Positions 431-35,410 of a DNA stretch of 46,639 nucleotides are shown here, piece after piece; positions within the stretch are counted from its first letter, which is position 1, and each line of letters opens with the position of its first letter. The notes beneath the pieces are model-generated. The model searched no databases and was not told where the DNA came from. It saw nothing but the letters and a program-made list of their open reading frames with translations. The stretch covers positions 1-46,639 of the forward strand of contig PGZR01000026.1 in assembly GCA_002841405.1 (NCBI GenBank). The letters run 5' to 3'. The stretch is from Firmicutes bacterium HGW-Firmicutes-4 (GTDB taxonomy: Bacteria; Bacillota; Clostridia; Eubacteriales; Eubacteriaceae). The translations under genes were made by a program, and so were the position numbers.

Positions 431-486
431 TTACCTACTGTTTCGTAATCAGTAGGTCGGCGGTTCGATTCCGCCCGCTAGCTCCA
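431..486 (+). other. tRNA-Thr(CGT) 3' fragment, att copy 1
   Basis: The fragment holds the anticodon arm with loop TTCGTAA (anticodon CGT, Thr), the variable region, a GGCGG/CCGCC T-arm around TTCGATT, the 3' acceptor strand CGCTAGC and the CCA end. No D-arm or 5' acceptor strand (GCTAGCG expected) lies upstream, so it is not a functional tRNA gene. It is the kind of 3'-end target that tyrosine-recombinase elements use and duplicate. Three more copies occur in the same orientation. Confidence 0.8.
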
Positions 487-499
487 GTAAGATCTATCG

Positions 500-531
500 A
501 AAATGGCTATTTAAAGCCATTTTTTTTATTT
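500..531 (+). terminator. Rho-independent terminator after att copy 1
   Basis: A 9-bp stem (AAAATGGCT with AGCCATTTT) is followed at once by a run of T. It is placed as the original tRNA terminator would be. Att copies 2 and 4 also have hairpin terminators just downstream. Confidence 0.75.
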
Positions 532-535
532 TTTG

Positions 536-557
536 TTAGGGTGTCAAAAGTATTTTC
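536..557. mobile_element. Solo insertion-sequence end
   Basis: The sequence TTAGGGTGTCAAAAGTATTT is the same terminal repeat found at 17796-17816 and, inverted, at 10391-10410 and 17926-17946. At 10391 it borders an IS1182-family transposase remnant, which suggests the family. The stretch 558-800 holds a 69-codon minus-strand frame (536-745) with no recognisable similarity and no clear ribosome binding site; I treat it as IS debris rather than a gene. Confidence 0.5.
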
Positions 558-802
558 AACCTCATTGATAATTCTCTCCAACTGAGGTCTGATTTCTGGT
601 AAAATAGACACAGAATCAAATACAGCAGAGGATACATAACGATGTCATTTAAAATCCATCCTTTAGTGGCATCAAGAACCTCATTTGTTAGTTTATCCCA
701 TACATTATGTGCTAATGGATCAGCGAAAACCATTTCAGGTATCATTGAAAATAGAAATATGTTGCCTAATTTTTCCTGATTTCCAGACAGTTGCGCAAAT
801 TA

Positions 803-862
803 AGAAAAGGCCCAATCCCAACAGAACCATATAGGTTCATAGCTGGGATTGGACCTTTTCTA
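803..862 (-). terminator. Long-stem terminator after the flavoprotein gene
   Basis: A nearly perfect inverted repeat (AGAAAAGGCCCAATCCCA against TGGGATTGGACCTTTTCT) lies 30 bases past the stop of the minus-strand flavoprotein gene. Short A/T tracts flank it on both sides, so it could stop transcription in either direction. Confidence 0.7.
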
Positions 863-893
863 AAATTATACAGGATGAATAAACTACAAACTG

Positions 894-1661
894 CTAATTC
901 TTTTTTATTTGCATATTGACTTTTTTCAGTTCATCTTCTCGCCACTGTCGCATACCCTGATCCATCACGGGCATGATCTGTCCCATCATTTTGTTAATAT
1001 TCTTTTGGTATCCTTCTTTATCAAAGGCAGGATCATTTCTAAGGCAATCGCCTAATAATTTTCCAAGTTTCTTTCCTTTTTCAAAGACGCTTTGATTTTC
1101 AACATCAAAACAATTGGAATCGGATACGATCCCATTTTCACCTACCTGCATAGGGGCGGCAGAATTGCCACAGATATCTCCCTTACCACAGGTAAAGCAG
1201 GGAACAGTGCCATTAATAACGAGCTGATCGAGTAGGATGAATTTTTCCATGACCATTTCCATCATGATCTGCTGGTTGACTTGTTCAGCGGTATTTTTAT
1301 TAGCAGATGTTACCACGGTAATGGCAAACTTGCCGCTGTTCAGGCTATTGATATGCCGCATTGACCATAATCTTTCAAGCAGCGCTTTTGAAAAAGCATC
1401 AATCATGCCATAGGGTGTGTACACGCCGAAAATAACGACCTCTGCCCCTAAAATAAGATTGCTTATTTCCTCAAAATCATCTTTCTGAACACATCGATTG
1501 GTTGTAACACAGGCTTTACAAGCCAAACACGGGCGGACAACCCAATCACTTAGTTTAATAAAATCATATTCAAAACCGGTTTGATCGGCAATGGTTTTAA
1601 GCATTCGATCAGTGTTGCTATTCTTAATCGGTGATCCACTGATACATAGTATCTTTTTCAT
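894..1661 (-). CDS. Iron-sulfur flavoprotein (Isf-like, flavodoxin-fold NAD(P)H:FMN reductase)
   Basis: This 255-residue protein begins MKKILCISGSPIKNSNT, the phosphate-binding loop of the flavodoxin-like NADPH-dependent FMN reductase family. Cysteines at about 45, 48, 51 and 57 form the compact C-x2-C-x2-C-x5-C motif known from Methanosarcina Isf, which binds a 4Fe-4S cluster beside FMN. A second cysteine group (PCFTCGKGDIC) near residue 170 is less usual. I chose the ATG at 1659-1661 because AGGTTAATAT-type spacing after GGAGG supports it; the frame stays open 11 codons further. Isf proteins pass electrons from ferredoxin to oxidants such as O2, H2O2 or quinones. Its neighbours, a PNPOx-like protein and an HxlR regulator, fit a small redox-stress module. 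Confidence 0.85.
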   Translation of the reverse strand: MKKILCISGSPIKNSNTDRMLKTIADQTGFEYDFIKLSDWVVRPCLACKACVTTNRCVQKDDFEEISNLILGAEVVIFGVYTPYGMIDAFSKALLERLWSMRHINSLNSGKFAITVVTSANKNTAEQVNQQIMMEMVMEKFILLDQLVINGTVPCFTCGKGDICGNSAAPMQVGENGIVSDSNCFDVENQSVFEKGKKLGKLLGDCLRNDPAFDKEGYQKNINKMMGQIMPVMDQGMRQWREDELKKVNMQIKKN

Positions 1662-1787
1662 ATTAACCTCCAGAGTTATAGTTTGAACGCACATTATAAC
1701 AGAGATATTTTTAAATACCTATACTTCTGGGTAATATTCTACTTTTTCAGTGTCAAGATCATATCTGGAGCCGGTTAAATTGACGGC

Positions 1788-2093
1788 TTATATCAGAGCG
1801 TCCACTTTTATCGGGGTAAAAATAAGCTGCTTATCTTTGACTGTAGCTGTGCCAGTGAGACGATAACCTTCAGGACCGTCATTCATTGTGGCTCCTACAA
1901 CCCATGCGTTTATGTTAGTCTCCAAATTCTTCTGTGTTGTTTCCATTTTGTAAATTCCAAAGACCACTGCATCACCGATAACTTCACCTTTGCCTGCAAT
2001 AATTGGGTGGGGAGTGCCATCTGCACCCAGTGTGACAAGAGAGAGGAATGCTGAGCCCTCAATAACTGCTTTTATTTCCTTACTAATAACCAT
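1788..2093 (-). CDS. Pyridoxamine 5'-phosphate oxidase-like flavin-binding protein
   Basis: A 101-residue protein with the split-barrel opening of the PNPOx-like family (SAFLSLVTLGADGTPHP, then VVFGIYKMETTQKNLE). It is shorter than most members (about 120-150 residues) and ends in an ordinary stop, so it may be a minimal form. Such proteins bind FMN or F420 or act as small reductases; no specific substrate can be read here. GGAGATGGCG lies just upstream of the ATG at 2091-2093. It is divergent from the HxlR regulator at 2218, a common arrangement for HxlR targets, and may be co-transcribed with the flavoprotein downstream after a gap of 126 bases. Confidence 0.75.
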   Translation of the reverse strand: MVISKEIKAVIEGSAFLSLVTLGADGTPHPIIAGKGEVIGDAVVFGIYKMETTQKNLETNINAWVVGATMNDGPEGYRLTGTATVKDKQLIFTPIKVDALI

Positions 2094-2151
2094 TTCGCCA
2101 TCTCCTTAATATTTTTTTTAGATAGTCATATACTTTGGTTTTACTACCTGG

Positions 2152-2157
2152 TATAAT
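2152..2157 (+). promoter_or_regulatory. Extended -10 element for the hxlR gene
   Basis: TGGTATAAT gives an extended -10 (TGn) with no good -35. It is flanked on both sides by ACTAC motifs (TTACTACC and AATACTACGG), plausible half-sites for the regulator. A decayed second copy of this region occurs at 3346-3428 and keeps the same motifs. Confidence 0.5.
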
Positions 2158-2217
2158 AATACTACGGAATATTTGATATTTCAAGTACGCAGAATATTAT
2201 GAGTAGGTGAGAAAAAA

Positions 2218-2580
2218 ATGACTTTAATTGACGATCAAAATAATAGCCCTTGTAAAGACAATTGTCCGTGCATGGACTATTGTCCATTAGGAAGTGCGTT
2301 AAGTCTAATTGGCGGAAAATGGAAGATACCCATTTTATGTGCTCTTTTTCAGGACGGAACAACGAGATTTAATGAGCTGAAACGCAAGATCAGAGGGATA
2401 ACAAATACTATGTTGGCAAGTTCATTAAAAGAGCTGGAAGAAGAGGGGCTTATATCCCGGGAACAATTTATGGAAATGCCATTGCGGGTCGAATATTCTT
2501 TGACTGACGATTGTCGTGATTTGATGCCGATTCTTAATCAACTCGCACATTGGGGAGCTCAAGTACAGATAACAAAATAA
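2218..2580 (+). CDS. HxlR/MarR-like winged-helix regulator with a cysteine-rich N-terminus
   Basis: The protein has 120 residues. Residues about 22-105 carry the HxlR signature (CPLGSALSLIGGKWKIPIL, TRFNELKRKIRGIT, LTDDCRDLMPIL). HxlR proteins are dimeric winged-helix regulators, often responding to thiol stress or aldehydes through a single N-terminal cysteine. Here there are four N-terminal cysteines (12, 16, 18, 22), in the order C-x3-C-x-C-x3-C, instead of one. That could mean metal or FeS binding, or disulfide switching (inference). The ATG at 2218 follows GGTGAGAAAAAA. The gene is divergent from the PNPOx/flavoprotein pair, its likely target. Confidence 0.85.
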   Translation: MTLIDDQNNSPCKDNCPCMDYCPLGSALSLIGGKWKIPILCALFQDGTTRFNELKRKIRGITNTMLASSLKELEEEGLISREQFMEMPLRVEYSLTDDCRDLMPILNQLAHWGAQVQITK

Positions 2581-2621
2581 CCATAAGTGCATTGAAAAAA
2601 TGGTTACTACGATTCCAGATA

Positions 2622-2663
2622 AAGAAATCTCATTTTCTTGTATTTTTGAAAATGAGATTTCTT
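2622..2663. terminator. Bidirectional terminator between convergent genes
   Basis: A perfect 15-bp stem (AGAAATCTCATTTTC with GAAAATGAGATTTCT) and a 10-base loop separates the HxlR gene from the oppositely oriented DUF1638 gene. Confidence 0.75.
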
Positions 2664-2680
2664 ATCTTGGTGGGTGTATT

Positions 2681-3244
2681 TTATTTTTTGTATAAAGACA
2701 TGATTTGTGCTTTGAAATGATCAAGTGAAGTTTCATATGGTTCAATCGGTACTTGTGTATACTCAAAAAAGTCAAATTGATCTTCATCCGAAACTTCACC
2801 AATTCCAGTATCCACAAAGACTACTCTTTCATATGACCCAAAATTCTGGCGGGCATCGCAGGCATCCCATTTCAACCCATCAACAAAAATATTTCGCCAA
2901 TTCTCAAGCCATCCGCATGAAACGTAAAAACTGTTACACTCTGAATCCAGCTCTTTCATCTTATCACCAAGTAGAAGATCCGTGCAGTTTGCTTTTGGGG
3001 CTATTTTTGCCTCATATTTTTTCGCGATTTCCATCATCTTAGGATGGCAGCTCGTACCAATTAACAATCCGATTTTATCATTTCTGCTTTGAGCTTCATT
3101 TAGTTTCTCAATCAATGCTGCTTCTAATAGCTTATCATCAATATGCAAGGCTGGATCAATAAAAATGACCTCATCTTGTATTCCCAATTCTTTCATGGCA
3201 CACTTTATTTCTTCTGCCAGAATGGCACATGCAACAAAAACCAT
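2681..3244 (-). CDS. DUF1638-like protein
   Basis: This 187-residue protein starts MVFVACAILAEEIKCAM and contains LLIGTSCHPKM, KANCTDLLLGDKMKE, FYVSCGWLENW and VVFVDTGIGE. Those features recall DUF1638 proteins, which are found in methanogens and anaerobic acetogens, often near methyltransferase genes. Conserved cysteines at residues about 6, 56, 87 and 110 are consistent with a metal or corrinoid-related role, but no activity is established for the family. GGGAT precedes the ATG. I am fairly sure it is a gene and only moderately sure of the family. Confidence 0.65.
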   Translation of the reverse strand: MVFVACAILAEEIKCAMKELGIQDEVIFIDPALHIDDKLLEAALIEKLNEAQSRNDKIGLLIGTSCHPKMMEIAKKYEAKIAPKANCTDLLLGDKMKELDSECNSFYVSCGWLENWRNIFVDGLKWDACDARQNFGSYERVVFVDTGIGEVSDEDQFDFFEYTQVPIEPYETSLDHFKAQIMSLYKK

Positions 3245-3345
3245 TTTATCCCTTCTTTCATAATAGTTATTTTGTAAAAGTTCCTTTTTGGAAATTTAAT
3301 ACCGCAGTCATCAATCCTTTCGTTTAAATTTGGTAGTAATACATT

Positions 3346-3428
3346 TTTAATACCTGATACAATGATACTACCGATAAACTAACTTGACAAGTACGCAGAT
3401 AATTGTTATTAGATAAGAAAAGAATGAC
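3346..3428 (+). repeat. Second, orphaned copy of the hxlR promoter region
   Basis: The order of motifs ATACCTGATACAATGATACT, ACAAGTACGCAGA, TTATTAG and GAAAAGAATGACTT follows that at 2143-2224 upstream of hxlR, including the start codon and second codon. The coding part that should follow is gone: the frame stops after five codons. This points to a former duplication of hxlR from which the gene was deleted. Confidence 0.6.
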
Positions 3429-3436
3429 TTCACAAA

Positions 3437-4030
3437 ATGTATAAATTAGTCATGACATCTGGAAAAAGCAAAAAGACCATCTTAGCTCCTAAAGGAACCA
3501 GATATGACGATGCAAATGATTACTCGATCGTTGTAAAAGCAACCTATGAGAATACATCACTCTTATTAACAGGAGATGCAGAAGCGGTCTCAGAAAGGCA
3601 GATAGTATCAAACGGTTCAGATTTAACGGTAACTGTCCTAAAAGTCGGGTATCATGGCAGTCGAGCATCCACAGGTGACAGATTCCAGGATAAGGTCAAT
3701 CATAAGGTTGTTGTTATAAGCGTGCAAAGGGAATAACTATGGTCATACGACACAGAAAGTGATGAATAGACTTCAAGCCAGAGGTATACTGGTTTACAGA
3801 ACCTATGTGAATAGAACCATTGTCGCTACCAGCAATGGAAATGAGGTGACATTCAATACTGATCCTGGGAGTCACAATGGTATGTCCTCTGAGCCCGCCG
3901 AAGTGCAACATCTCAATCTGTATCAGTGCCAGAGCTAGTTCCGGTTGCTGCACTCAGTGAAGATCAAAGTGTAACGGTCTATGCCACGAGTACTGAAACT
4001 AAATATCAGCTACCACAGAGAGAGGGTCTA
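3437..4030 (+). pseudogene. Metallo-beta-lactamase-fold (ComEC/Rec2 C-terminal type) protein, frameshifted remnant
   Basis: The first frame (3437-3736) contains DANDYSIVVKATYENTSLLL, TGDAE and LKVGYHGSRAS, which are hallmark motifs of the MBL domain found at the C-terminus of ComEC and in secreted MBL proteins. After about 3733 the family sequence goes on in another frame (NNYGHTTQKVMNRLQARGI, then VYRT) to a stop at 3936-3938. A third frame then gives SEDQSVTVYATSTETKY, a typical tail of these proteins. At least two frameshifts and a missing N-terminus make this a pseudogene. It lies where the second hxlR used to be. Confidence 0.75.
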
Positions 4031-4033
4031 TTT

Positions 4034-4365
4034 ATGAAGGTCGGATTAATCAGATGTATGCAGACGGAAGATATGTGCCCGGCAACAACGTGTTTTAAAG
4101 TAATTAATACTAAGAAGCTGGCTTTTGAAGGAATTGAGGAAGATAACGAAGTTGCCAGAATGAATACCTGTGGTGGATGCCCAGGGAAAACGCCGTTACA
4201 AGAGCTGCTGAAATGATTAAAAGAGGTGCGGACACGATTGTTATTGCTTCATGTATCACAAAGGGCAATCCCATTAGGTTTCCGTGTCCGAATGCAGAAC
4301 AGATGATAGCTGCAATAGAAAAGAAGGCTGGAGGATCAATTAGAATCATTGATTATACACATTAA
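4034..4365 (+). pseudogene. CGGC-domain protein with one frameshift
   Basis: The ATG at 4034 opens MKVGLIRCMQTEDMCPATTC and runs to NTCGGCPGK. There the frame moves: the homologous continuation NAVTRAAEMIKRGADTIVIA is read from the overlapping frame ending at 4365. One lost base near 4190 would explain it. Joined, the two parts make a protein of about 110 residues of the CGGC family, whose members carry a CGGC motif thought to bind metal and whose function is unknown. It could be a recent pseudogene or a sequencing error in a G/A-rich run. Confidence 0.7.
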
Positions 4366-4394
4366 TTTTAATGAATAAAACCAAGGAAAGAATT

Positions 4395-4423
4395 AAAGGC
4401 CACTGAAAAAGTGGTCTTTTTCT
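4395..4423 (+). terminator. Rho-independent terminator
   Basis: GGCCAC and GTGGTC form a stem with an A-rich loop, followed by TTTTTCT. It lies 30 bases beyond the CGGC gene. Confidence 0.75.
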
Positions 4424-4530
4424 AGGTGTGAGCATAGGCGTAATCGAACGGGTGAAAGTTCCGAACATGGGTCAAGTGCATAACCATGGGCAAGGGTGTT
4501 CCCGCCGACGAGGAATCTGAATTATCCCAA
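4424..4530 (+). mobile_element. Possible group II intron 5' fragment
   Basis: The run of motifs CGAACGGGTGAAAGTTCCGA, AAGTGCATAACCATGG and GACGAGGAATCTGAA resembles the structured RNA just upstream of the reverse transcriptase in bacterial group II introns. No reverse transcriptase follows; the similarity ends near 4530. The call is from memory of such introns and is tentative. Confidence 0.4.
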
Positions 4531-5289
4531 TAATCTCTAGAAAATATCGGAATTTTCTTATATATAAAAAAGTTTCTCGGATAATAAGTACGGTTTTATT
4601 GGCTAATTTATTTTGAAATTAATTCAAGAAAAGGCAGTGATGGGCAGTGTAAACTAATTGTATCCTTTTTATTGACTTGCCGGAAAATCGATGTATAATG
4701 CAATTAAGGGACAAATTGTGGTTTGTCGCCATTTATCCATTAAGATTAAATCCCACTATATCAGTTTTGAGAGTTTACACAAAACTTGAAACATTCCCAA
4801 TTCGTAAGCAAACGATTTATTACTATTGCTTAATTCTTGGTGGTATACCATTGAAAATGACGATTTTGTGCAGTTAGTTTTTGAATTGTAGGGAATTGCA
4901 GATAAAATAACTTATCGATATGATTTCCTAACAAAAACTTCACAATACGGTAAGAAACATGGGAATTACACATACTATGTTATTTATTTACTGTATCCCG
5001 ATTAAGTATAATGTGCATACTTTTCCAGGCGCGATATTAAAATTACTCAGATAAATATCTCTGATTTGGAAATTCAATTATTATCAAGAGTAAATGTGCT
5101 GGAATAAGCTAAGTGATAAAAAGTTTAAAAATCGATAATGCTATAATGCACAATTTATGCACATCAGGAATAAATTAAACTAAATTTAGAATTGATTATA
5201 ATTAATATAATGGCTGGAAAGCCCTTTAAAATGGCGGTTTCTAAAATTACAATAGCTTTTAAGATACTAAAATAAAACCATGTAATCCA
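4531..5289. other. AT-rich stretch without a recognisable gene; one orphan promoter
   Basis: No frame here has both a ribosome binding site and recognisable protein features; a 66-codon frame at 4677-4877 starts inside the spacer of a promoter and has no binding site. The promoter itself is good: TTGACT at 4672-4677, 16 bases, TATAAT at 4694-4699. It may drive a small RNA or be the remains of a deleted gene. Confidence 0.4.
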
Positions 5290-5335
5290 ATTCGTAATCA
5301 GTAGGTCGGCGGTTCGATTCCGCCCGCTAGCTCCA
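5290..5335 (+). other. tRNA-Thr(CGT) 3' fragment, att copy 2
   Basis: This is the shortest copy. Identity to copy 1 begins at the anticodon loop (TTCGTAATCAGTAGG) and runs through the T-arm and acceptor strand to CCA. The sequence to its left (AAACCATGTAATCCAA) is unrelated to the other copies, which marks the crossover limit near the anticodon. Confidence 0.8.
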
Positions 5336-5355
5336 GTAAAAAATAATATTTAGTT

Positions 5356-5388
5356 AAAAGAATGGCTTTAATTAGCGGTTCTTTTTTT
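5356..5388 (+). terminator. Terminator after att copy 2
   Basis: An imperfect stem AGAATGGCT / AGCGGTTCT is followed by eight T. It is placed as after att copies 1 and 4. Confidence 0.65.
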
Positions 5389-5393
5389 TATTT

Positions 5394-5485
5394 TTTGATT
5401 TTAGTCTCCACCTAAAGTATGACCGACTGTGAAAAGTTAAAAAACTCTGGCTATTTCTGGCTATTTTCCCCCTGTTTTTGTCGCA
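5394..5485 (+). repeat. Left-arm repeat of an island module (copy A)
   Basis: About 90 bases match 8854-8945, which likewise lies just after an att copy. Shared landmarks are GATTTTAGT, AAAGTATGACCGACTGTGAA and a tandem CTGGCTATTT CTGGCTATTT. A diverged third copy is at 40524-40573. The tandem decamer looks like arm-type binding sites for a recombinase or excisionase (inference). The 65-codon frame at 5419-5616 that overlaps it is not a credible gene. Confidence 0.65.
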
Positions 5486-5708
5486 TTTGCGTCCTGCTTT
5501 TTGTCGCAGTTTTTTACGACTGTCTTTTGCAAGTAAGTACTTTTTGCCCTTTGATAATTAATGGATTACTAATTGTAGAAATACTGCGGTTAAATAAAAT
5601 ATGTGTATTGAAATAATAAATGTTTGCACTTCAAATTCTTGAATTAGTGTATTGTAAAATTTTCATACAGGGGTATAATTATTAAAAAAACTATGTTAGA
5701 GGTGTGTA

Positions 5709-6143
5709 ATGTCCCAAGATAAGAACAATGAAGTATATAATTATGATAAAATTTTCCAAAAGTATTCAAAAATTTTTAGAAATCCAAAATATGAAGTTTA
5801 TGATTTAGAAAAATTTATTTTTTTAATTGAAATAAAAGTTGTACATAGTGAAGAGTTAAAACCCAAAATATTTGATCCATTAGAAACTGTCTTGAACATA
5901 GTGATGGTTTTTATTATTGCATCTACAGTTTTACTATTATGTAGTCAAGACGCATTTTTTTGTGTTTTAGTGCTGGCTGTGTTTACTTATATCGCTTTAT
6001 TTTTTATGGTAAATATTTTAAGAACTAAGTCAATTAATCAAATGACAGAATATTCAAATACTAAAAAAAAGTACTTAATCATAAAGAAATGCATTGAAAA
6101 TGAAATTGTGAGACGCAAAGACAATGATATGAAAAATTCTTAG
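5709..6143 (+). CDS. Hypothetical protein with two membrane segments
   Basis: I do not recognise this 144-residue protein. It has a charged N-terminal region of about 60 residues, two hydrophobic segments (about 65-85 and 88-108, with LNIVMVFIIASTVLLL and LVLAVFTYIALFFMV), and a basic C-terminal tail predicted to face the cytoplasm. AGAGGTG upstream of the ATG supports the start, and a terminator follows the stop. Its base composition is strongly AT-rich. It opens the module that carries AbiE, so a role in island biology or defence is possible but unsupported. Confidence 0.6.
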   Translation: MSQDKNNEVYNYDKIFQKYSKIFRNPKYEVYDLEKFIFLIEIKVVHSEELKPKIFDPLETVLNIVMVFIIASTVLLLCSQDAFFCVLVLAVFTYIALFFMVNILRTKSINQMTEYSNTKKKYLIIKKCIENEIVRRKDNDMKNS

Positions 6144-6151
6144 TAAGTTAA

Positions 6152-6181
6152 AAAGATACCTTATAGGTTATCTTTTTTTAT
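6152..6181 (+). terminator. Rho-independent terminator
   Basis: AAAGATACC / GGTTATCTTT with a TTATA loop is followed by a T run, just after the two-segment membrane protein. Confidence 0.7.
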
Positions 6182-6508
6182 ACAACAAAAAAATGAATAA
6201 GTTGACGTCGTATTGACCTGATCTCCAAAAACTGAAGCAATATAAATTTTAGTCACTTTTTATAAAACATTCCATTGATGCACTATCAGATTGGAATACT
6301 CATTCCGGCAATGATTTTTGGCATTTCTGAGTTTTTTCCGTTTCTCAAGTGAGGAATTACGCTTTTCCAGCTGGCCATTTATATGGATGTTTCCAGAATT
6401 AATAATTGGTATTTCACAGGTAGAAAGAATAAGTAAAAAATTTCGATAAAACTGTACGTATGAACTTCGAAATGATAGAATGGAAGTGTGCTAGTACGGA
6501 GGTGTGTT
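6182..6508. other. Intergenic stretch before abiE; no gene seen
   Basis: No frame of note. The last 60 bases should contain the abiE promoter (AAACTGTACGTATGAAC region), but I see no clean -35/-10 pair. The AbiEi antitoxin of other systems represses its own operon through inverted repeats in this position; none is obvious here. Confidence 0.4.
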
Positions 6509-7108
6509 ATGGGACAGAAAGATCAAATTATGGATTTAGTTAGACTTAAAAATGGCCAGATTGAGACAAAAGATGTGGTTGATCAAGGGCTGCGCAAAGA
6601 GGTATTGTCGGAGCTAGTTGAGGAAGGGGCATTGATTCGGGTAAAGCGAGGTGTTTATATGCTGCCGGAAGGAACAGTGGATGAGTTACAGATCATTCAA
6701 CTCAAAATTCCGAATGGGATATTCTCTTTTGGAACCGCCCTTTATTTTAATGGTTTATCCAATCGAGTCCCGGAAATTTATCATATCAGCGTACCCCATG
6801 GTAGAAATATGACGCGTATCAAAAGGGAAAACTCAAATATTGTTTTACATTATCCTAAACAAGAATATTTTGAACTCGGAAAAAAAACGGCTCAAACTAC
6901 CTTTGGTGCATTCATTTTCATATATGATGCCGAACGCTGCATTCTGGATTTGATAAAATATCGCAAAAAAATGGACATGCAGTTATTTAATGATGCATTG
7001 AAGCTATATTTTGAAAGTGAGGAAAAGAACTTGTTAAGGTTGAGCATTTATGCCCAAAAATTGGGTATGGAAAATGCTTTGAGGGTATATACGGAGGTGT
7101 TATTATGA
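6509..7108 (+). CDS. abiEi: AbiEi family antitoxin / transcriptional repressor
   Basis: A 199-residue protein with the N-terminal winged-helix of AbiEi-type antitoxins (QIETKDVVDQGL, LVEEGALIRVKRGVYMLPEG, residues about 15-60). The AbiEi middle domain follows (SFGTALYFNGLSNRVPEIYH, VPHGRNMTRI). I start it at the ATG 6509 because ACGGAGG lies eight bases upstream; an in-frame GTG at 6488 has no such site. AbiEi neutralises AbiEii in type IV systems (no direct complex) and autoregulates. Its stop overlaps the toxin start by four bases (ATGA), so the two are translationally coupled. Confidence 0.9.
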   Translation: MGQKDQIMDLVRLKNGQIETKDVVDQGLRKEVLSELVEEGALIRVKRGVYMLPEGTVDELQIIQLKIPNGIFSFGTALYFNGLSNRVPEIYHISVPHGRNMTRIKRENSNIVLHYPKQEYFELGKKTAQTTFGAFIFIYDAERCILDLIKYRKKMDMQLFNDALKLYFESEEKNLLRLSIYAQKLGMENALRVYTEVLL

Positions 7109-7950
7109 AATCGCCGGAGCAATTAAAAGGGGCCATTCGAAAGATGGCGAAAGAAAAAGAAATTGGCGCTGGTTCTTTACTTCAGATGTTTCTGTTTGAG
7201 CGGATTCTTGAGCGACTGGCGAAGTCAAAATATCGTGATGCATTTATTTTAAAAGGTGGTCTTCTGATCGCATCAATGATTGGTGTAAATCAGCGAACAA
7301 CAATGGATATGGACGCCACAATTCGAGGTTTGCCAGTTAATGAGGAATTGCTGACAAATATTTTAGCAGAAATTTTAAGGTTAGAATCCGATGATGAAAT
7401 CGTATTTTCCCTCCATGGACTTAAATCGATTCGTGAAAAAAGTCAGTATGAGGATTATTGTGCAACAATCTTTGCGGATTATGGAAAAATTCACGCTGTT
7501 CTTAAAGTCGATATTACAACAGGTGACGCAATCACTCCCAGGGAAGTCGCCTATTCATATCCGTATTTATTAGGTGACGGGGAAGCATCAATTATGGCTT
7601 ATCCGGTTGAAACGATTTTGGCAGAAAAATACGAGACCATCTTGAAACGTAATATCTTGAACACTCGAGCAAGAGACCTGTATGACTTGTATATGCTTTA
7701 TCATCTTTATCATTCGAGAATAGAAGCAAAAACGCTGGCATTGGCGATTGAAAACACGGCAAAAATACGGAATTCTCTTGAGGAGATTCGTTCATATGAA
7801 TCAATTTATGAACTGATTAAGACAAACTTGGCACAACAGTCTCTTTGGGAAAATTATCAAAAGGAGAATGAGTTTGCCAGAAGCGTAAAGTTTGAGGATA
7901 CTCTTGATTGTGTGATGAAAATAGGGCGGAGCATCAAGATCAGCGGTTAA
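7105..7950 (+). CDS. abiEii: AbiEii family nucleotidyltransferase toxin
   Basis: A 281-residue protein with the conserved AbiEii order: FILKGGLLIASMIG (motif I, GG near residue 50), TTMDMDATIRG (the D-x-D metal-binding pair near 69-71), LKVDITTGDAIT (third acidic residue), and YPVETILAEKYETIL with TRARDLYDLYMLY. Family length is about 280-300, so it looks complete. These toxins transfer nucleotides, in studied cases to tRNA acceptor ends, and cause growth arrest or phage abortive infection. It is the intact version of the fragments at 2-292 and 37537-38223, from which it has diverged substantially. Confidence 0.9.
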   Translation: MKSPEQLKGAIRKMAKEKEIGAGSLLQMFLFERILERLAKSKYRDAFILKGGLLIASMIGVNQRTTMDMDATIRGLPVNEELLTNILAEILRLESDDEIVFSLHGLKSIREKSQYEDYCATIFADYGKIHAVLKVDITTGDAITPREVAYSYPYLLGDGEASIMAYPVETILAEKYETILKRNILNTRARDLYDLYMLYHLYHSRIEAKTLALAIENTAKIRNSLEEIRSYESIYELIKTNLAQQSLWENYQKENEFARSVKFEDTLDCVMKIGRSIKISG

Positions 7951-7976
7951 TGCGTTTTATAGTCAAATGAATTGCA

Positions 7977-8042
7977 ATGATAGCAACAGGTATTGCCTTA
8001 TCAATGGCAGCAGGAGAAATTGAGCGTGTATTAACAAAGTAA
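7977..8042 (+). other. Possible 21-codon small ORF
   Basis: The frame MIATGIALSMAAGEIERVLTK ends 14 bases before the next gene. It has protein-like composition (hydrophobic then charged helix) but no clear ribosome binding site. It may be the tail of a lost gene rather than a small protein. Confidence 0.25.
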
Positions 8043-8056
8043 TAAGGGGAGAAAAG

Positions 8057-8419
8057 ATGGAGAAATCAGTTATATTTGGTGTGCTTTTAACAATTTATAC
8101 CGTATGGCTTATTGTGGATTTAGTAAGAAGTAGAGGGAAAAGCTTATCTAAGATTATGAGACGAGCAGCTATTTTTTTCGCAGTCGCAGGATGGTTTTTG
8201 TACTTGCTATCTATTGGAGCCCCTGTTGTAGGCGCTTATAATAATAGTGCATTTAAAATTTTTATCAGCCTAGGTTTTCTTGTTATAATGGGTTTATTTG
8301 TAGCCCCACATACAAATTTAAAAAAGGGGACGCCTGAGTATGAATTGGTAAAAGGAGCATTGCTTTTGGTAGTTGCTACAATCTTAATAGGAGTAATTGG
8401 ATATAACTTTTGGTTTTGA
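8057..8419 (+). CDS. Hypothetical four-segment membrane protein
   Basis: The protein has 120 residues and four hydrophobic segments at about 5-23, 37-58, 66-85 and 97-118, with little outside the membrane. AAGGGGAGAAAAG before the ATG is a good ribosome binding site, and a terminator follows. I do not recognise the family. It is the last gene before att copy 3 and shares the module with AbiE. Confidence 0.65.
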   Translation: MEKSVIFGVLLTIYTVWLIVDLVRSRGKSLSKIMRRAAIFFAVAGWFLYLLSIGAPVVGAYNNSAFKIFISLGFLVIMGLFVAPHTNLKKGTPEYELVKGALLLVVATILIGVIGYNFWF

Positions 8420-8442
8420 GATTTATCCAATAAATGAATATT

Positions 8443-8480
8443 GATCTGCAGTAACTAAGTTGCTGCGGATCTTATTTTTA
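8443..8480 (+). terminator. Rho-independent terminator
   Basis: GATCTGCAG and CTGCGGATC form the stem, with TTATTTTTA after it, 24 bases past the membrane-protein gene. Confidence 0.75.
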
Positions 8481-8788
8481 TTAGTCGTATTAATTTACAG
8501 AGTATTAATTCAGATCGAATTATGGGTGAAGTATTATTAACAATTGCATCATATAAGGGGAACTATACCGGAGCTGTTGAGAAGGCGAACATGCGTGACG
8601 GGCGCAGCCGACTGTGGCCCAGATCAGAAATAAAATTTAGTTAGTATATGGTCGTCGAAATGGCTTAACTGTGAGATTACAATGAGTAGAATCAAATAGA
8701 ATTTAGTAGAATATTGACAAACATTTGAGAAAAGAGATAAAATGTGTCTTAAAAATGTCGTAAAAGGCCAAAAAATGGCCTTAATATG
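8481..8788. other. Intergenic stretch with a small hairpin, no gene
   Basis: No coding frame is supported. Close to att copy 3 lie TGTCTTAAAAATGTCGTAAAA, reminiscent of the arm repeats before copies 1 and 4, and a hairpin AAGGCCA/TGGCCTT at 8764-8782. Confidence 0.4.
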
Positions 8789-8848
8789 CCATTTACCTAC
8801 TGTTTCGTAATCAGTAGGTCGGGGGTTCGATTCCCCCCGCTAGCTCCA
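8789..8848 (+). other. tRNA-Thr(CGT) 3' fragment, att copy 3
   Basis: As copy 1 from CCATTTACCTACTG to CCA, but the T-arm is GGGGG/CCCCC instead of GGCGG/CCGCC. The paired change keeps the stem, so the sequence descends from a functional tRNA of a slightly different allele. Copy 4 shares this T-arm. Confidence 0.8.
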
Positions 8849-8853
8849 GTAAA

Positions 8854-17603: not shown

Positions 17604-17668
17604 TAGCGATAAAAAAGCATGAAAATGTTATGAGTGATTTTCTTCTCTCAAAAGCAAAGTTAAACATG

Positions 17669-17692
17669 GGAGGGCATTTGCCCTCCTTATTA
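17669..17692 (+). terminator. Hairpin after the kinase gene
   Basis: GGAGGGCA/TGCCCTCC forms a tight stem followed by TTATTAA. It is a weak tail by itself; a better terminator follows at 17732. Confidence 0.6.
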
Positions 17693-17731
17693 AATATAGA
17701 GTTTCCTCGAAAACTCTAGAGATATGACTTA

Positions 17732-17764
17732 CCAGCGGTTTGAGTGATTGCTGGTTTTTTCTTT
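17732..17764 (+). terminator. Rho-independent terminator
   Basis: CCAGC and GCTGG pair around a 13-base loop and are followed by TTTTTTCTTTT. Confidence 0.65.
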
Positions 17765-17795
17765 TCAGCCAGATTTTTTGGTGCTCAATATATGA

Positions 17796-17946: not shown

Positions 17947-17949
17947 CAA

Positions 17950-18190
17950 ATCATATATTTTAAAATAATCATCGCGAAATATAAATGTCTATATATTGCA
18001 AGAAGCAAAGAATTTTATCTTTCTATCTTATCAAATTGAGACCAGTCTGTCATTTTTTGATATTATTTTACAATCTTTAAAACTGATTGTAATGGGTTAC
18101 AATTGACTGTTGTTGTACTCGGTTTTAATAAGGTGCTATACTGAAATTGTGGAAAGGTTAAGGGAAAATATTATTTACCTAAGCTGCTTA
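17950..18190 (+). repeat. Promoter-region duplication, copy B
   Basis: Copy of 10414-10660. It retains ACAATC-N9-GATTGT (18070-18090), TGTAATGGGTTACA (18088-18101), TTGTAC (18113-18118), an 18-base spacer and TATACT (18137-18142). The aldolase gene that should follow is absent; copy B runs into the HAD fragment. Confidence 0.8.
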
Positions 18191-29617: not shown

Positions 29618-29639
29618 TGATTACATGCTAGTGTGTGTC

Positions 29640-31234: not shown

Positions 31235-31377
31235 AATAAAAACATCCTGGCTAATGTATTTATTCTACATCAACCACGAGGTTTACACAATTTTTGAAAC
31301 GGTCTCAGATAAATCGCAGAAAGCTATGGTTTGATGCGCTTTGACGGATTTTATTATGTTTTTGTGAATAATACGGG

Positions 31378-31989
31378 TTAAATTTCTACAATTCTATCAC
31401 ATATCACATTACTATCCTGTATATCATGAGTAACAAGTATAGTCGTTATTCCAACCTTGTTTAAAATGGTTTTAATTTCCACCCTAATCTTTTCTTTAAT
31501 TTCTGAATCAAGTGAACTAAACGGCTCGTCCAATAAGAGTATTTTAGGATCTATTACCAAGGATCTTGCAATTGCAACTCTTTGTTTTTGTCCACCACTT
31601 AGTTCGTGTGGAAATCTATCAAGATATTTATCGATTTCAAGCATCTTGACAACATTTTTAAGCTTTTTTTGTCTTTCATTTTTGGGTAAATGTTTTATTC
31701 CAAATAGGATATTATTCTTTACGCTTAAATGGGGAAAAAGTCCAAAGCTTTGAAACACATACCCAACATTTCTATTAAACGTAGGTGTATCCGTAACGTC
31801 TTTTCCATCAATAATGATTTTGCCACTCATAGTTTTTTCAAGACCTGCAATAAGCCTTAAAATTGTACTTTTTCCAGTTCCGCTATTACCTTTGATCCCA
31901 ATACATTCTCCCTTTTTAACATCAAGGTGAAAATTATTTATAATTAAATTTTGATCATAACCAAAGCTTATATTATCTACCTTTAGCAT
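31378..31989 (-). CDS. ABC transporter ATP-binding protein (iron-type, FbpC-like)
   Basis: A 203-residue ATPase with Walker A GNSGTGKST (residues 35-43), the Q-loop VGYVFQSFGLFPHLS, signature LSGGQKQRVAIARSL, Walker B ILLLDEPFSSLD and the H-loop VTHD. It is short: FbpC-type proteins have about 340 residues and a C-terminal regulatory TOBE domain, which is lacking. It overlaps the permease stop by 17 bases. It energises import by the permease and lipoprotein encoded upstream. The ligand is inferred from them. Confidence 0.88.
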   Translation of the reverse strand: MLKVDNISFGYDQNLIINNFHLDVKKGECIGIKGNSGTGKSTILRLIAGLEKTMSGKIIIDGKDVTDTPTFNRNVGYVFQSFGLFPHLSVKNNILFGIKHLPKNERQKKLKNVVKMLEIDKYLDRFPHELSGGQKQRVAIARSLVIDPKILLLDEPFSSLDSEIKEKIRVEIKTILNKVGITTILVTHDIQDSNVICDRIVEI

Positions 31990-33565
31990 TTTTAAACATC
32001 CTCTCTAAAATTAAAATACTGATTATACTAAACATCACAATTACTATGCTTGGGACAGCAGCAACGTCCAACATTTCATTTCCAGCATATCGATACACTT
32101 CTGTGGAAAGTGTATTGAAATTAAAGGGTCTAAGGCTATATGTCAAAGTTAGATCTTTTATTAAATCAATAAAAATCAGGATAATGACGAATCTAACTGA
32201 TTTGAGTAGAAAAAAGAAATCGACCAAGAAAAATGTTTTTGTAGCATTTTTTCCAAGCACGTAGGACGACTCAAATATGCTTTTATCAATCTTCTCGTAT
32301 GATTGTTCGAACTGGCTATAAGCAATAGATAAAAACTTAAAAGTGAGTGCAATAATTAGTGCGAGTCTTGTACCTGTAAATAAGTATTCTGTAAAGCCTA
32401 AATATTGCAAATATGGCATTATAACGTTATCGATGTTAACTAAAAAAGAGTAAATTCCAAGTCCTAAAACAACGGATGGTATTGCATACCCCAACATACT
32501 TATTGACGATATACGTCTTTTGTTTTTTGCAGTAAAAAATTTAAGCATACTAGTAAGGAACATAGCAAGGACAATAATTATAAATATTGTTATTAATGTA
32601 GTGGTTAACGTGTTGATGCTAACACTTAGAATGTCCTTTTTAATAAAATACTCCCTATTTTTAATAGCACCTTCAACGATGTTTTTAAATGGTAACAAAA
32701 ATCCTAAAGATATAACAAGGGTATAAAACGCATAGATGAACTTCTTTTGTACTTTAGACGCTTTTTTTAGTTTGTTTGGCTTATGAATAGTTGCATTGTT
32801 TTTTCCTTTTCCTCTTGATATCCTTTCAAGATATATTATAAAAAATAATATAAAAAGTAACGATAAAGATAGTTTAAATGCAGTATCTTTTTCAGCGATC
32901 AAGAGCCAAGAATCATTGATTGCTTTAGAGAGTGTAGGAACGCCGTAATATTCTGCAACTGCGAAGTCGGATAAGCTTTCATATATTACAAATAAGCTAG
33001 ACGATACAATAACAGGTCGTGACAAGGGCAAGATGACTTTAAAAAACGTTTTTAGAGGTGATATTTGCAAAGTTTCACTTACCTCGATATATTCAGCCAT
33101 GTTGTTTTTAAGGTAAGACCTTGATGCCAAATATACATAAGGATAAAGAAAAGCTGTATATATAAACACTACCCCGTTCATAGTGAACTCATTTTTAAGT
33201 ATTGTTTCTAGAACAGAAAACGTATGAAAAATATCGGTGTATGTATACGCTCCAACGTAAACAGGAATGCTAAGGGGCAAAATGAACAGTAAATTTATAA
33301 TCCACTTATTTTTAAAGTTGTAAAAAGTAATAAAATAAGCGCCTAAAAAACCTATAATGGAAGCAAGTAAGCCTACCTTTAATATTAGTTGTAATGTGTT
33401 TTGTATGTATATTAAAAGGATGCCTTTATCCAAAATTAAATTAAGATAATTAGAATTTTGTGTTAGGGTGTTTTTAAAAATATACAAAAGAGGCATCAAA
33501 AGAATTAATAAAAAAATATATACAACATATTTTAGTATTTTAATATCGTTTATGCTTTTCTTCAT
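31973..33565 (-). CDS. ABC transporter double-length permease (ferric iron type)
   Basis: In this 530-residue protein two homologous permease halves are fused, as in FbpB/SfuB/FutB. There are about twelve hydrophobic segments, and each half has an EAA-type loop (SETLQISPLKTFFKVILPLS near residue 165 and SSYVLGKNATKTFFLVDFFF near 440). GGAGACCCGC precedes the ATG. Strongly AT-rich coding separates it from the genes on both sides. Confidence 0.88.
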   Translation of the reverse strand: MKKSINDIKILKYVVYIFLLILLMPLLYIFKNTLTQNSNYLNLILDKGILLIYIQNTLQLILKVGLLASIIGFLGAYFITFYNFKNKWIINLLFILPLSIPVYVGAYTYTDIFHTFSVLETILKNEFTMNGVVFIYTAFLYPYVYLASRSYLKNNMAEYIEVSETLQISPLKTFFKVILPLSRPVIVSSSLFVIYESLSDFAVAEYYGVPTLSKAINDSWLLIAEKDTAFKLSLSLLFILFFIIYLERISRGKGKNNATIHKPNKLKKASKVQKKFIYAFYTLVISLGFLLPFKNIVEGAIKNREYFIKKDILSVSINTLTTTLITIFIIIVLAMFLTSMLKFFTAKNKRRISSISMLGYAIPSVVLGLGIYSFLVNIDNVIMPYLQYLGFTEYLFTGTRLALIIALTFKFLSIAYSQFEQSYEKIDKSIFESSYVLGKNATKTFFLVDFFFLLKSVRFVIILIFIDLIKDLTLTYSLRPFNFNTLSTEVYRYAGNEMLDVAAVPSIVIVMFSIISILILERMFKNAKGR

Positions 33566-33605
33566 GCGGGTCTCCTTCAGATAATTAGATTTAAAAGATG
33601 AAATT

Positions 33606-33639
33606 AAAGGACAAAAAGAAGTGATTCTTTTTGTCCTTT
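33606..33639 (-). promoter_or_regulatory. Hairpin between binding-protein and permease genes
   Basis: A perfect 13-bp stem (AAAGGACAAAAAG with CTTTTTGTCCTTT) and 8-base loop lies between the lipoprotein stop and the permease start. On the minus strand it is followed by only a short T-rich run. Such hairpins often act as partial terminators or 3' stabilisers that give more binding protein than permease. Confidence 0.6.
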
Positions 33640-33708
33640 ATGTCAATAAGCTTATTTATGTCACTATTCTTATCATTATGTAGAATTATATGATTTAAAA
33701 TCATGTAT

Positions 33709-34824
33709 CTATTTTTTTGGAGAATCCCAATTAGCTGCCGTCATAATTTCATATGCCTTAGCATTATTATCACCAAGAACACTTAAATTTATATCCTGTT
33801 CTTTAAGTTCTGTAATACCTTGGTTATCTAACCAAGATTGCAATAAATCTGAAGTCTTAGCGTCTTTATTAACTGGAAACTCGTAGTTTGTTGCAGAAAA
33901 TATTTCTTGTTGTTCTGCTTCTGATAGAAATTCAATTAGTTTAATAGCGTTCTCTTTATTAGAGGCATTTTTTATAACACCAACACCACTAATATTAACA
34001 TGTACGCCACTCTCATTTTCGCCTTGGTTCGGGAAGTAAATATTAACCATATCAGAAACACCATAGTATTCAGAAGTTTTATCAGTTTCATTTGCAATTT
34101 GCCCATAATAATATGAGTTTGCAATTGCAATATCGCCTATACCGTCCTTAATAGCTACAGCTTGGTCTCTGTCATTACCTTCTGGGTTTTTTGCCATTTG
34201 TGTTTTTAATTTCGCTACCCATTCAACAGTTTTTTCTTCTCCCATAGTTTTAATGAAAGATGCAACTAATGATTGGTTATAAATGTTGGATGAGCTTCTG
34301 ACGAGTACCTTATCTTTCCATCTTTCGTCATTTACTAAAGAAGAGTATGTAAGAGTTTTTAGTTCATCGTTTGTTACTCTGTCTTTAGAATAAAGAAGAA
34401 CTCTAGCTCTTTTAGTTAGTCCAAACCAATAATCATCGACATCTCTGTATTTTTCAGGAATGTTATTGTTAAGAGTTTGGCTTGAGATAGGTTGTAAAAT
34501 ATCTTCAGATTTTGCATTTGCTAAGTTACCTGCATCAGAAGTTATAAAAACATCAGCTTGTACATTTTCACCTTGTTCCTTTATCTTTTCAATACTTACT
34601 AAAGCTTTATCAGAAACAATATTAACTTTAATTCCTGTTTCTTTAGTAAACTTTGAATACAGTTCCTCATCGGTATCATAATGCCGAGTTGTATATATAT
34701 TCACTTCACCAGCATCTTCTGTCGATTTTTGTACTTCGCTAACTGATTGACAACCGGTTAATACAGTTAGTACAGTTAATACAATTGCCATAACTGCAAT
34801 TAAGGAAACGAATCTTTTTTTCAT
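33709..34824 (-). CDS. Ferric-iron-type substrate-binding lipoprotein (FbpA/FutA-like)
   Basis: The 371-residue protein has a lipoprotein signal (MKKRF, hydrophobic stretch, LTGC with C25). The mature part opens VNIYTTRHYDTDEELYSKF, the FutA/FbpA pattern, and has SYYYGQ near residue 225, the paired tyrosines that bind Fe(III) in the family. AGGTTATTT-type spacing after GGAGG supports the start. It is first in a three-gene operon with permease and ATPase. Upstream palindromes suggest metal-dependent repression. Confidence 0.88.
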   Translation of the reverse strand: MKKRFVSLIAVMAIVLTVLTVLTGCQSVSEVQKSTEDAGEVNIYTTRHYDTDEELYSKFTKETGIKVNIVSDKALVSIEKIKEQGENVQADVFITSDAGNLANAKSEDILQPISSQTLNNNIPEKYRDVDDYWFGLTKRARVLLYSKDRVTNDELKTLTYSSLVNDERWKDKVLVRSSSNIYNQSLVASFIKTMGEEKTVEWVAKLKTQMAKNPEGNDRDQAVAIKDGIGDIAIANSYYYGQIANETDKTSEYYGVSDMVNIYFPNQGENESGVHVNISGVGVIKNASNKENAIKLIEFLSEAEQQEIFSATNYEFPVNKDAKTSDLLQSWLDNQGITELKEQDINLSVLGDNNAKAYEIMTAANWDSPKK

Positions 34825-34900
34825 AAATAACCTCCATTATTTACCGTTTCTTAATTAGCACATAATATTTATCTTGCTATTAGAAACACATCTTTTATTT

Positions 34901-34974
34901 GTTAGAATGAGCTAACTATAACCCCTAAATAAAACCTAAATTTCTTTAGGTTATTCAAGTTAGAAATAACTAAC
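34901..34974 (-). promoter_or_regulatory. Operator sites of the iron transporter operon
   Basis: Two inverted repeats of identical design, GTTAG-N6-CTAAC, are at 34901-34916 and 34959-34974. Between them is AACCTAAATTTCTTTAGGTT (34933-34952), an 8-bp palindrome. The half-sites TTAG and CTAA resemble DtxR/IdeR or MntR boxes. The second site begins right after the -10 of the minus-strand promoter. The regulator is not in the window. Confidence 0.6.
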
Positions 34975-34980
34975 AAATTG

Positions 34981-35009
34981 AGTTTAACATTTTTTAGTTA
35001 GCTTGTCAA
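34981..35009 (-). promoter_or_regulatory. Promoter of the iron transporter operon
   Basis: On the minus strand TTGACA (35009-35004), a 17-base spacer and TAAACT (34986-34981) fit a sigma-A promoter. The spacer contains another GCTAACTAA half-site pair. Confidence 0.75.
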
Positions 35010-35084
35010 CAGTGCTAATGAATTATTAAGAGTTATTTATGAATGACTTATGATAATGTCCTAGTGGACCACTTTTAAAATAAA

Positions 35085-35285
35085 AATTTGGGGGTGCGGA
35101 CAAAAACTTAGACTTTAAGAAAGGATTTTGTTATCTAATCGTATGAAAAATGAAGAGTTGCATTGAGCTTTATATTAAACATGATTTAAAGGTAGACCCG
35201 GTTGTCAAAGAACTTGGTTATCCATCGAAACGTGTTTTATATAAATGGTAAAAGGAATATCATGAGTTAGCAGGTATTCCCTGCA
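35085..35285 (+). mobile_element. IS3-family orfA remnant with left end
   Basis: From about 35140 the sequence CIELYIKHDLKVDPVVKELG and YPSKRVLYKWYKEYHELAG (with frameshift and a stop) matches the helix-turn-helix protein OrfA of IS3/IS150-group elements. GGGGGTGCGGACAAAAACTT before it resembles an element end. OrfB is missing here; a separate orfB remnant lies at 38375-38896 on the other strand. Confidence 0.65.
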
Positions 35286-35287
35286 AT

Positions 35288-35350
35288 CGAAAAAAAGAGT
35301 AAAACGTGTCGTAAACATGTCGCATATCATATAGAAAAGCCTGAAATAAG
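35288..35350 (+). repeat. Conserved arm upstream of att copy 4
   Basis: Matches 364-430 without indels, including GTGTCGTAAACATGTCGCAT. Together with the tRNA fragment the repeat is 123 bases. Confidence 0.6.
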
Positions 35351-35410
35351 CCATTTACCTGCTGTTTCGTAATCAGTAGGCTGGGGGTTCGATTCCCCCC
35401 GCTAGCTCCA
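35351..35410 (+). other. tRNA-Thr(CGT) 3' fragment, att copy 4
   Basis: From CCATTTACCTGCTG to CCA, with the GGGGG/CCCCC T-arm of copy 3 and two more changes (ACCTGCTG, AGGCTGG). The D-arm and 5' acceptor strand are absent. It marks the right limit of the sugar and iron module. The sequence beyond the CCA (TGATCAAG) differs from that after the other copies. Confidence 0.8.

Follow-up and report, generated by a model that had tools for sequence, protein, structure and literature searches.

A genus-wide tandem array of modules at the tRNA-Thr(CGT) gene of Acetobacterium, most of them without an integrase

Islands that stand in tandem behind one RNA gene have been described before. Passages of McMurdie et al. 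2011 (PMC3146451) on the ssrA islands of Dehalococcoides report 16 islands that have an integration module and 15 that lack one, and suggest that the latter are cis-mobilizable. In Streptococcus, cis-mobilizable elements (CIMEs), which have no integration or transfer genes and have kept both attachment (att) sites, attL and attR, occur in tandem with integrative and conjugative elements (ICEs), integrative and mobilizable elements (IMEs) or prophages (sections of PMC5704250). Tycheposons, as outlined in parts of PMC10872708 and PMC11389934, are cargo elements of 4 to 200 kbp in marine and freshwater bacteria. We analysed a stretch of 46,639 nucleotides from Firmicutes bacterium HGW-Firmicutes-4 (hereafter the window), and conclude that in this Acetobacterium the tRNA-Thr(CGT) gene very probably heads a tandem array of integrated elements, of which the window is the distal part and in which integrase-less CIMEs are still exchanged.

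The Dehalococcoides ssrA islands are the nearest precedent, and the same logic is, judging by the passages cited, already known there: islands lie in tandem behind one RNA gene, its 3' end forms the direct repeats, integration genes are found at the left att on the reverse strand, and the cargo serves niche metabolism (PMC3146451). Unlike those islands, which use the serine recombinase DsiB on a tmRNA target, the Acetobacterium array combines, on a single tRNA-Thr, tyrosine integrases of three distantly related families; arm-like repeats that are paired between the two module ends, also kept by modules without an integrase, and near-identical modules in different species are likewise Acetobacterium features in this comparison, and it is these three points that are new here. 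Excision or transfer has been assayed for some of the Streptococcus tandems, whereas the Acetobacterium modules are known from sequence alone; in comparison with what the cited sections of PMC5704250 describe, most complete modules here are without an integrase and up to five target fragments stand behind one tRNA. The array is like tycheposons in being bounded by tRNA sequence, in carrying cargo and in having a tyrosine recombinase (parts of PMC10872708 and PMC11389934), and like the additive flexible genomic island of Methylophilaceae, in which the final 20 bp of a tRNA gene recur and by their repetition mark out the island (a part of PMC10872708). Among the Acetobacterium and acetogen papers listed, no title or abstract opening describes an array at the tRNA-Thr locus.

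The window is an entire 46.6-kb contig (C205) of a 3.73-Mb draft genome (225 contigs, 86% complete). It holds four tRNA-Thr(CGT) 3' halves without 5' halves, all on the + strand, at 442-486, 5291-5335, 8804-8848 and 35366-35410 (coordinates run from TTCGTAAT to CCA), in agreement with an earlier note on this DNA. That note had given the repeat a length of 46 to 60 bases, because a pseudo anticodon-stem half (CCTACTG or CCTGCTG) precedes fragments 1, 3 and 4; none precedes fragment 2. No intact tRNA was found in the window by ARAGORN, and no Rfam family matched it. A DNA search of the window genome gave eight tRNA-Thr(CGT) matches (E values of 1.7e-36 to 4.5e-14, which exclude a chance origin of the fragments), the further four lying on contigs C40 (two), C111 and C34. 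A hairpin with a T run follows three of the four window fragments (-13.1, -11.9 and -9.7 kcal/mol), the exception being the fragment at 8804, again as the note had it. Its description of the intervening pieces (about 4.8, 3.5 and 26.5 kb, each with a different cargo) also held: the fragments are spaced by 4,812, 3,476 and 26,525 bases, and the cargo comprises redox and regulator genes, AbiE genes, a sugar pathway that includes several pieces of transketolase genes, and an ABC transporter. The reported lack of an integrase was borne out, as none of the eight tyrosine recombinase (PF00589) and none of the four serine recombinase (PF00239) matches of the window genome lies on the window contig.

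The fragments recur throughout the genus. In a search of 61 genomes, at least one match was obtained in all 19 genomes of the genus (the window genome included) and at least two in 17; one genome per species was compared. The same sites were found on contigs of A. paludosum, A. bakii, A. fimetarium and A. tundrae, which places the array in Acetobacterium. HGW-Firmicutes-3 has contigs that match the window over 7,270 bp and C111 over 8,000 bp, both at 100% identity; this genome represents the same population as the window genome and is not independent evidence. Under the rule used (at most nine mismatches and a final CCA), the totals, window genome included, were 48 fragments (eight of them its own) and 16 intact genes, never on both strands in one stretch; sites below this rule also occur, for instance in G010 at 3450226 and in G015. 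The intact tRNA-Thr(CGT) gene that the earlier note had predicted was present in the fetched stretches of 16 of 18 sister genomes and absent from those of G015 and G018. In the single contig of G009, which we take to be A. woodii DSM 1030, the intact gene lies at 1272411 and five fragments come after it within 131 kb, at 1343469, 1353451, 1387005, 1394934 and 1403117, and in that of G011 five fragments lie within 31 kb behind the intact gene on the same strand. Between fragments there are 31 complete modules of 3 to 71 kb. The tRNA-Thr(CGT) locus is thus a genus-wide hotspot of tandem accretion, mostly of CIME-like modules, and the proposal of repeated site-specific insertion at one tRNA gene gains support, since an intact tRNA heads the same kind of array in sister genomes.

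Two other origins were weighed. The array could be an assembly or binning artefact of a metagenome bin, since the window genome is a 225-contig, 86%-complete draft whose contigs break near att copies; however, the same structure is present in the single-contig genomes G009, G010, G011 and G014 and in the isolates A. bakii, A. fimetarium, A. paludosum and A. tundrae. An artefact is therefore refuted for the phenomenon and highly improbable overall, with the order of modules within the window contig resting on a draft assembly. Alternatively, segmental duplication or transposons might have copied tRNA pieces, and indeed a 300-bp stretch of the window (1-300) recurs at 37932-38231 and transposase pieces are present. 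This stretch, however, is the end of an AbiEii gene that also recurs near other module right ends; the cargo between fragments is unrelated, with the likeness lying at the ends, and in single-contig genomes the fragments are ordered behind one intact tRNA on the same strand. We rejected this origin and give it hardly any probability.

Likeness among modules lies in their ends, whereas the cargo differs. Folding of ten left ends gave a hairpin with a T run in eight, a structure that would terminate the tRNA transcript; the window's third left end and the G002 chromosomal flank do not. Direct repeats, read by eye, stand at both ends of a module and are type-specific: TTGGGGACA, TTGGTGTTTA or TTGGCGTCC in type i, TTTGCCCCTTAT in type ii, TGTC(G/C)(T/C)A in type iii, and TGCACATCAGRAATAAA in type iv, with which no integrase was seen. 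Complete modules are flanked by tRNA 3' halves at both borders, as CIMEs are by attL and attR, and left and right end types agree in 24 of the 26 complete modules typed at both ends. Type-iii ends on both sides are found in 13 modules, one of which (the 71-kb A. woodii element) carries an integrase and 12 of which, two of them in the window, do not. TGTC(G/C)(T/C)A occurs 38 times at the type-iii ends of these 13 modules, with 0.55 expected and a maximum of five in 2,000 draws. The type-iii left block is alike for about 160 bases, the likeness fading out ahead of the integrase stop, which in the A. woodii element (G009 m0) is at base 187. By analogy with lambda-type integrases, the TGTC(G/C)(T/C)A repeats are putative integrase arm sites.

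A full-length tyrosine integrase lies beside the left att in 7 of the 31 complete modules, starting 104 to 228 bases behind the att, antisense and reading towards it. Like CIMEs, 22 of the 31 are without integration genes, no PF00589 match having been obtained in them by whole-genome searches; of the remaining two, one (G016 m2) has a truncated type i gene, and in the other (G011 m3) a different pair of recombinases lies close to the right end. A search with PF00239 for a recombinase hidden in modules without an integrase gave no match in the arrays of 11 genomes (G004 and G007 lying outside this search), which, together with the tRNA-Thr(CGT) target, separates these arrays from islands of the Dehalococcoides ssrA type. 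The type i integrase (461 aa) was found in G007, G008, G010 and G014, type ii (395 to 399 aa) in G004 and G009 m4, and type iii (360 aa) in G009 m0, with further examples of each in open-ended modules; the three families are 25 to 37% identical to each other over aligned parts. Remnants of type-iii integrases persist in G008 C23 m0 and G009 m3. Two of the integrase-bearing modules are elements of known kinds. G009 m0 (71 kb), which has the type-iii integrase at its left att together with Relaxase, T4SS-DNA_transf, T2SSE, P-loop_TraG, ParA-type AAA_31 and ParB_N, is an ICE, possessing an integrase, a relaxase, a coupling protein and type IV secretion genes. G004 m0, with a type ii integrase, TerL, Phage_portal and a 1163-aa protein with an M23 peptidase domain that was taken for a tape-measure protein, is a prophage by its terminase, portal and tail genes and its integrase. 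Against a plasmid collection, the type-iii integrase matched 392 records, all below 60% identity and at 26 to 30% among the eight matches listed; module end DNA had no match in the plasmid or phage collections. As a separate observation, what type ii right ends (e.g., G009:C1:1403117) have in common with the tRNA is limited to CAGTAGG and the sequence after it, to the exclusion of TTCGTAAT, so the crossover point of the type ii integrase probably lies nearer the 3' end of the tRNA gene than that of types i and iii.

Evidence of recent movement comes from near-identical modules in different species. The first complete module of the window (m0) is 99.9% identical over 3,542 bp to a G005 module that lies directly behind the intact tRNA, the two copies diverging 90 bases before the end of the G005 contig, and 99.1% identical over 4,371 bp to modules of A. 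fimetarium and A. bakii. Its left neighbour is the intact tRNA in A. fimetarium, a different fragment in A. bakii and an AbiE-ended module in the window. The first module of contig C40 of the window genome (G000) and that of G005 contig C79 are 99.99% identical over 13,950 bp and are preceded by a TGTCG right end in one genome and a TGTCC right end in the other. A hydrolase/phosphoribosyltransferase module, which starts at 35411 in the window, is 96 to 97% identical among G000, G010, G011 and G018 and has a different left neighbour in each, and an integrase-less module is 100% identical over 8,629 bp between A. bakii and A. fimetarium. Some integrase-less modules are 98.9 to 100% identical between species, in contrast to 72 to 81% for core DNA: rpoB identity is 79% between G005 and A. 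fimetarium and 81% between A. bakii and A. fimetarium, and, the assembly of the window genome having no rpoB match, a 6-kb chromosomal piece (one locus) gave 72% to G005 and about 80%, in the best pieces, to A. fimetarium and A. bakii. Some integrase-less modules have therefore moved recently, several of them with sharp left att borders. The condition under which the earlier note would have withdrawn its proposal, modules always present and tRNA ends never rearranged, does not describe these genomes, as the left neighbours of m0, C40 m0 and the hydrolase module vary. The 100% identity over 8,629 bp led us to consider cross-contamination between the A. bakii and A. fimetarium assemblies. However, nothing in the stretches of A. 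fimetarium matches the sequence before the att of A. bakii C29, the last 27 bases of which recur at other module ends of A. bakii. We think that the sharing between these two species is real; contig C77 alone would not prove it. Separately, G005:C79 (L079) begins and ends in the same module (1-767 and 17470-18027), about 2.1 kb of which was not found in the bin; an excised circle and a tandem copy explain these ends equally well.

These data suggest a model of accretion. An incoming circle would bring right-end repeats with CCTACTG, the shared TTCGTAAT stretch, its own copy of the tRNA 3' half, and then a terminator and left-end repeats. Crossing over within the anticodon arm of the tRNA would rebuild an intact tRNA with the 3' half and terminator of the element and push the old 3' half to the element's far end, and repeated insertion would yield the order intact tRNA, module, fragment, module, fragment. 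As integration would swap the 3' half, the T-stem haplotype should travel with the module to its right. Fragments carry mainly the haplotypes GGCGG/CCGCC and GGGGG/CCCCC (the window holds two of each), pairing T-stems are kept in 42 of 48, and the haplotype travels with m0 in four genomes. The integrase-less modules, as CIMEs, were probably moved by integrases of cognate elements, either in trans or by composite excision.

The integrase-less modules may instead travel only as passengers of a co-excising integrase-bearing neighbour, in cis rather than in trans, to which we give somewhat less than an even chance. Integrase-bearing elements do stand in the same arrays (G009 m0 and m4, G010 m0, G004 m0), some neighbours are kept (C40 m1, or its start, follows C40 m0 in G000, G005 and G018, and A. 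bakii C77 and A. fimetarium m1 share their left neighbour), and transfer of CIME-ICE tandems is known (sections of PMC5704250). Yet left neighbours vary, with three kinds for m0, two for C40 m0 and four for the hydrolase module, and in the fetched stretches no integrase-bearing element lies beside these shared modules in both genomes; neither point is decisive. The earlier note's picture of cassettes mobilizable in cis and moved in trans accordingly stands in part: cognate integrases are found behind the same tRNA and the same ends are kept, but movement as a composite island fits equally well. A further extension, which we put forward only tentatively, is that the paired end repeats (TGTCG, TGTCC and others) serve as an address that names the helper integrase, with type-iii ICEs distributing catabolic and defence cassettes in trans through the genus; if so, the tRNA-Thr(CGT) locus would be the shared cargo rack of the genus.

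The integrase-less modules could instead be decayed remnants that are no longer moved site-specifically, their sharing being due to homologous recombination or to transfer before integrase loss. Decay is visible in the terminator lost at 8849, the right end lost at 38272, a fused module in A. fimetarium, the integrase remnants, the broken T-stem in 6 of 48 fragments and the lack of extra conservation in right-end repeats. Distant species, however, share the same modules in identical form, already without the integrase (13,950 bp at 99.99% and 8,629 bp at 100%), for which the loss would have had to precede the transfer; the left border of m0 and of C40 m0 changes at TTCGTAAT, and end repeats are far above chance. 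We regard a fossil array as rather unlikely; the term mobile cassette is not valid for all modules, some having lost the terminator or the repeats or having fused.

Several results weigh against the model of accretion and exchange as a whole. No excised circle or attP was seen. The intact tRNA-Thr(CGT) was not found in the window genome's 86%-complete assembly, where the DNA search gave only the eight fragments and where none of the 19 tRNAs detected lies on the four fragment-bearing contigs; contig C89, which carries the conserved flank to the left of the locus, stops about 700 bases short of where the tRNA would be expected, so the gene is probably in an assembly gap. The integrases of the window genome are at most 38.7% identical to types i to iii, and in the single contig of G011, with its five fragments, an att precedes none of the four PF00589 matches, and the modules of this genome may accordingly be stranded. 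As to the ends, 5 of the 31 complete modules have no type at one or both ends and two are hybrids, and the strict-pattern repeat is absent from the left block of 4 of the 13 type-iii modules. The agreement of 24 modules does exceed what shuffling of the end types gave (a mean of 9.7 and a maximum of 20 in 100,000), but this comparison is too favourable because the patterns were written after seeing the data and near copies occur among the typed modules. Selective conservation of right-end repeats was not seen in an ungapped column count of 26 distinct ends (0.59 and 0.54 for the repeats, 0.60 for the spacer, 0.85 for the core flank), partly because TGTCC ends are shifted by one base; what the repeats contribute to the argument is motif enrichment only.

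Acetobacterium is a genus studied for gas fermentation, and the locus is a seat of gene gain for it. Apart from the window cargo, modules on C40 carry glycyl-radical enzymes and their radical-SAM activase, those of A. bakii carry molybdenum hydroxylases as well as an E1-beta-type dehydrogenase, and others carry the defence systems Gabija (A. fimetarium), IetAS (an integrase-bearing A. woodii module) and PDC-S06 (A. paludosum). Ten of the 48 right ends, each of them of type iii, have AbiEii no more than 1 kb away (C205_up, C40_up, G002_C12_up, G011 m1, G011 m2, G013 m0, G018_C524_up, window m1, G016 m0 and G008_C33_up), and AbiE genes in this position may stabilise modules. No transfer gene was found among the 30 of 52 window open reading frames given to Pfam; in other integrase-less modules the scan covered a minority of the proteins. 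As modules with and without an integrase share ends at the same tRNA in culturable bacteria that are not known to be pathogens, the locus offers a test bed for the question whether integrase-less islands are dead remnants or satellites moved in trans.

The window begins inside an upstream module, of which the contig edge has left only the right end (1-441, +); this has the 3' end of an AbiEii gene at 2-289 and is of type iii, with arm-like repeats TGTCGTAA at 383-390 and TGTCGCAT at 394-401, followed by gccatttaCCTACTG; positions 1-300 are 97% identical to 37932-38231. Att fragment 1 (442-486, +, GGCGG/CCGCC) leads into the 4.8-kb, integrase-less m0 (487-5290), whose left end is untyped and right end of type iv, and which comprises a terminator (499-524), an FMN reductase (894-1694, -), a PNPOx-like gene (1788-2093, -), an HxlR regulator (2218-2580, +) and DUF1638 (2681-3244, -). 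Behind fragment 2 (5291-5335, +, GGCGG/CCGCC) and its hairpin terminator, the 3.5-kb m1 (5336-8803), also without an integrase, has a type-iii left block (5336 to about 5520), AbiEi (6488-7108, +), AbiEii (7105-7950, +) and a type-iii right end with TGTCTTAA at 8745-8752 and TGTCGTAA at 8756-8763. Relative to window 4858-6280, the A. fimetarium module G016:C33 m0 has the m0 start fused to the m1 end, without the att and 1.4 kb between them, which would reflect a module fusion or an insertion.

Fragment 3 (8804-8848, +, GGGGG/CCCCC), with no hairpin downstream, precedes the 26.5-kb integrase-less m2 (8849-35365), which has a type-iii left block without a hairpin and a type-iii right end with repeats at 35307-35314 and 35318-35325. 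It encodes a LysR regulator, a DeoC-like aldolase, two Fe-alcohol dehydrogenases, an FGGY kinase, split transketolases (one piece was scanned and the remaining pieces were judged by eye), a transaldolase-like protein, RpiB and a class II aldolase, as well as a Mutator-type transposase piece and an ABC transporter with its binding protein (31378-34824, -). Several split transketolase pairs and duplicated sugar-gene pieces are present in m2, with internal repeats at 10444/17983 and 13740/18191.

Fragment 4 (35366-35410, +, GGGGG/CCCCC), with a hairpin terminator downstream, is followed by a fifth module, the truncated m3 (35411-38272), which has lost its right end and att at about 38272; it carries an alpha/beta hydrolase (35593-36231, -), a phosphoribosyltransferase (36228-36875, -) and AbiEii remnants (37587-38223), and is 97% identical over 2122 bp to G011_m1, whose type-iii end is intact. 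Beyond the lost end lie a transposase piece with an rve domain (38375-38896, -) and, on a weak sequence reading, a probable decayed att (40605-40650, +) whose tRNA part is lost and whose CTAATAAGAATCACATGAG... resembles the sequence after other att copies. The chromosomal right flank, starting near 40.6 kb (40682-46639, +), contains the bL25 gene (41467-42093), a class III CoA-transferase and a 2-hydroxyacyl-CoA dehydratase activator and subunit. In G002 its counterpart (89%) immediately follows an att, and in G010 it shares a contig with the array and lies downstream of it; in G011 only the bL25 part is found in that position, and the single long match in G009 is at another place, 2036426.

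A few sites stand apart. Type-iii right ends at L101 9774, L104 3062 and L068 5577 run to CAGTAGG and then continue into a mutually similar stretch (ggtacgg..cgc) that is not a tRNA end; these would be truncated att copies, perhaps cut by another mobile element. Outside the genus, contig C64 of G039 (L139), from another family, has an intact tRNA-Thr(CGT) at 4502-4577 followed by fragments at 13296 and 18166, with a shared right end of about 70 bp and similar terminators, and carries a second array at the same tRNA. The IMG/VR contig IMGVR_UViG_3300038334_000164 (L132) has a tRNA-Thr(CGT) fragment at 9540-9584, followed by sequence resembling the right flank of G002, and was read as another integrated element at this locus; its DinB-like gene resembles, by eye, one near the end of the A. 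woodii ICE.

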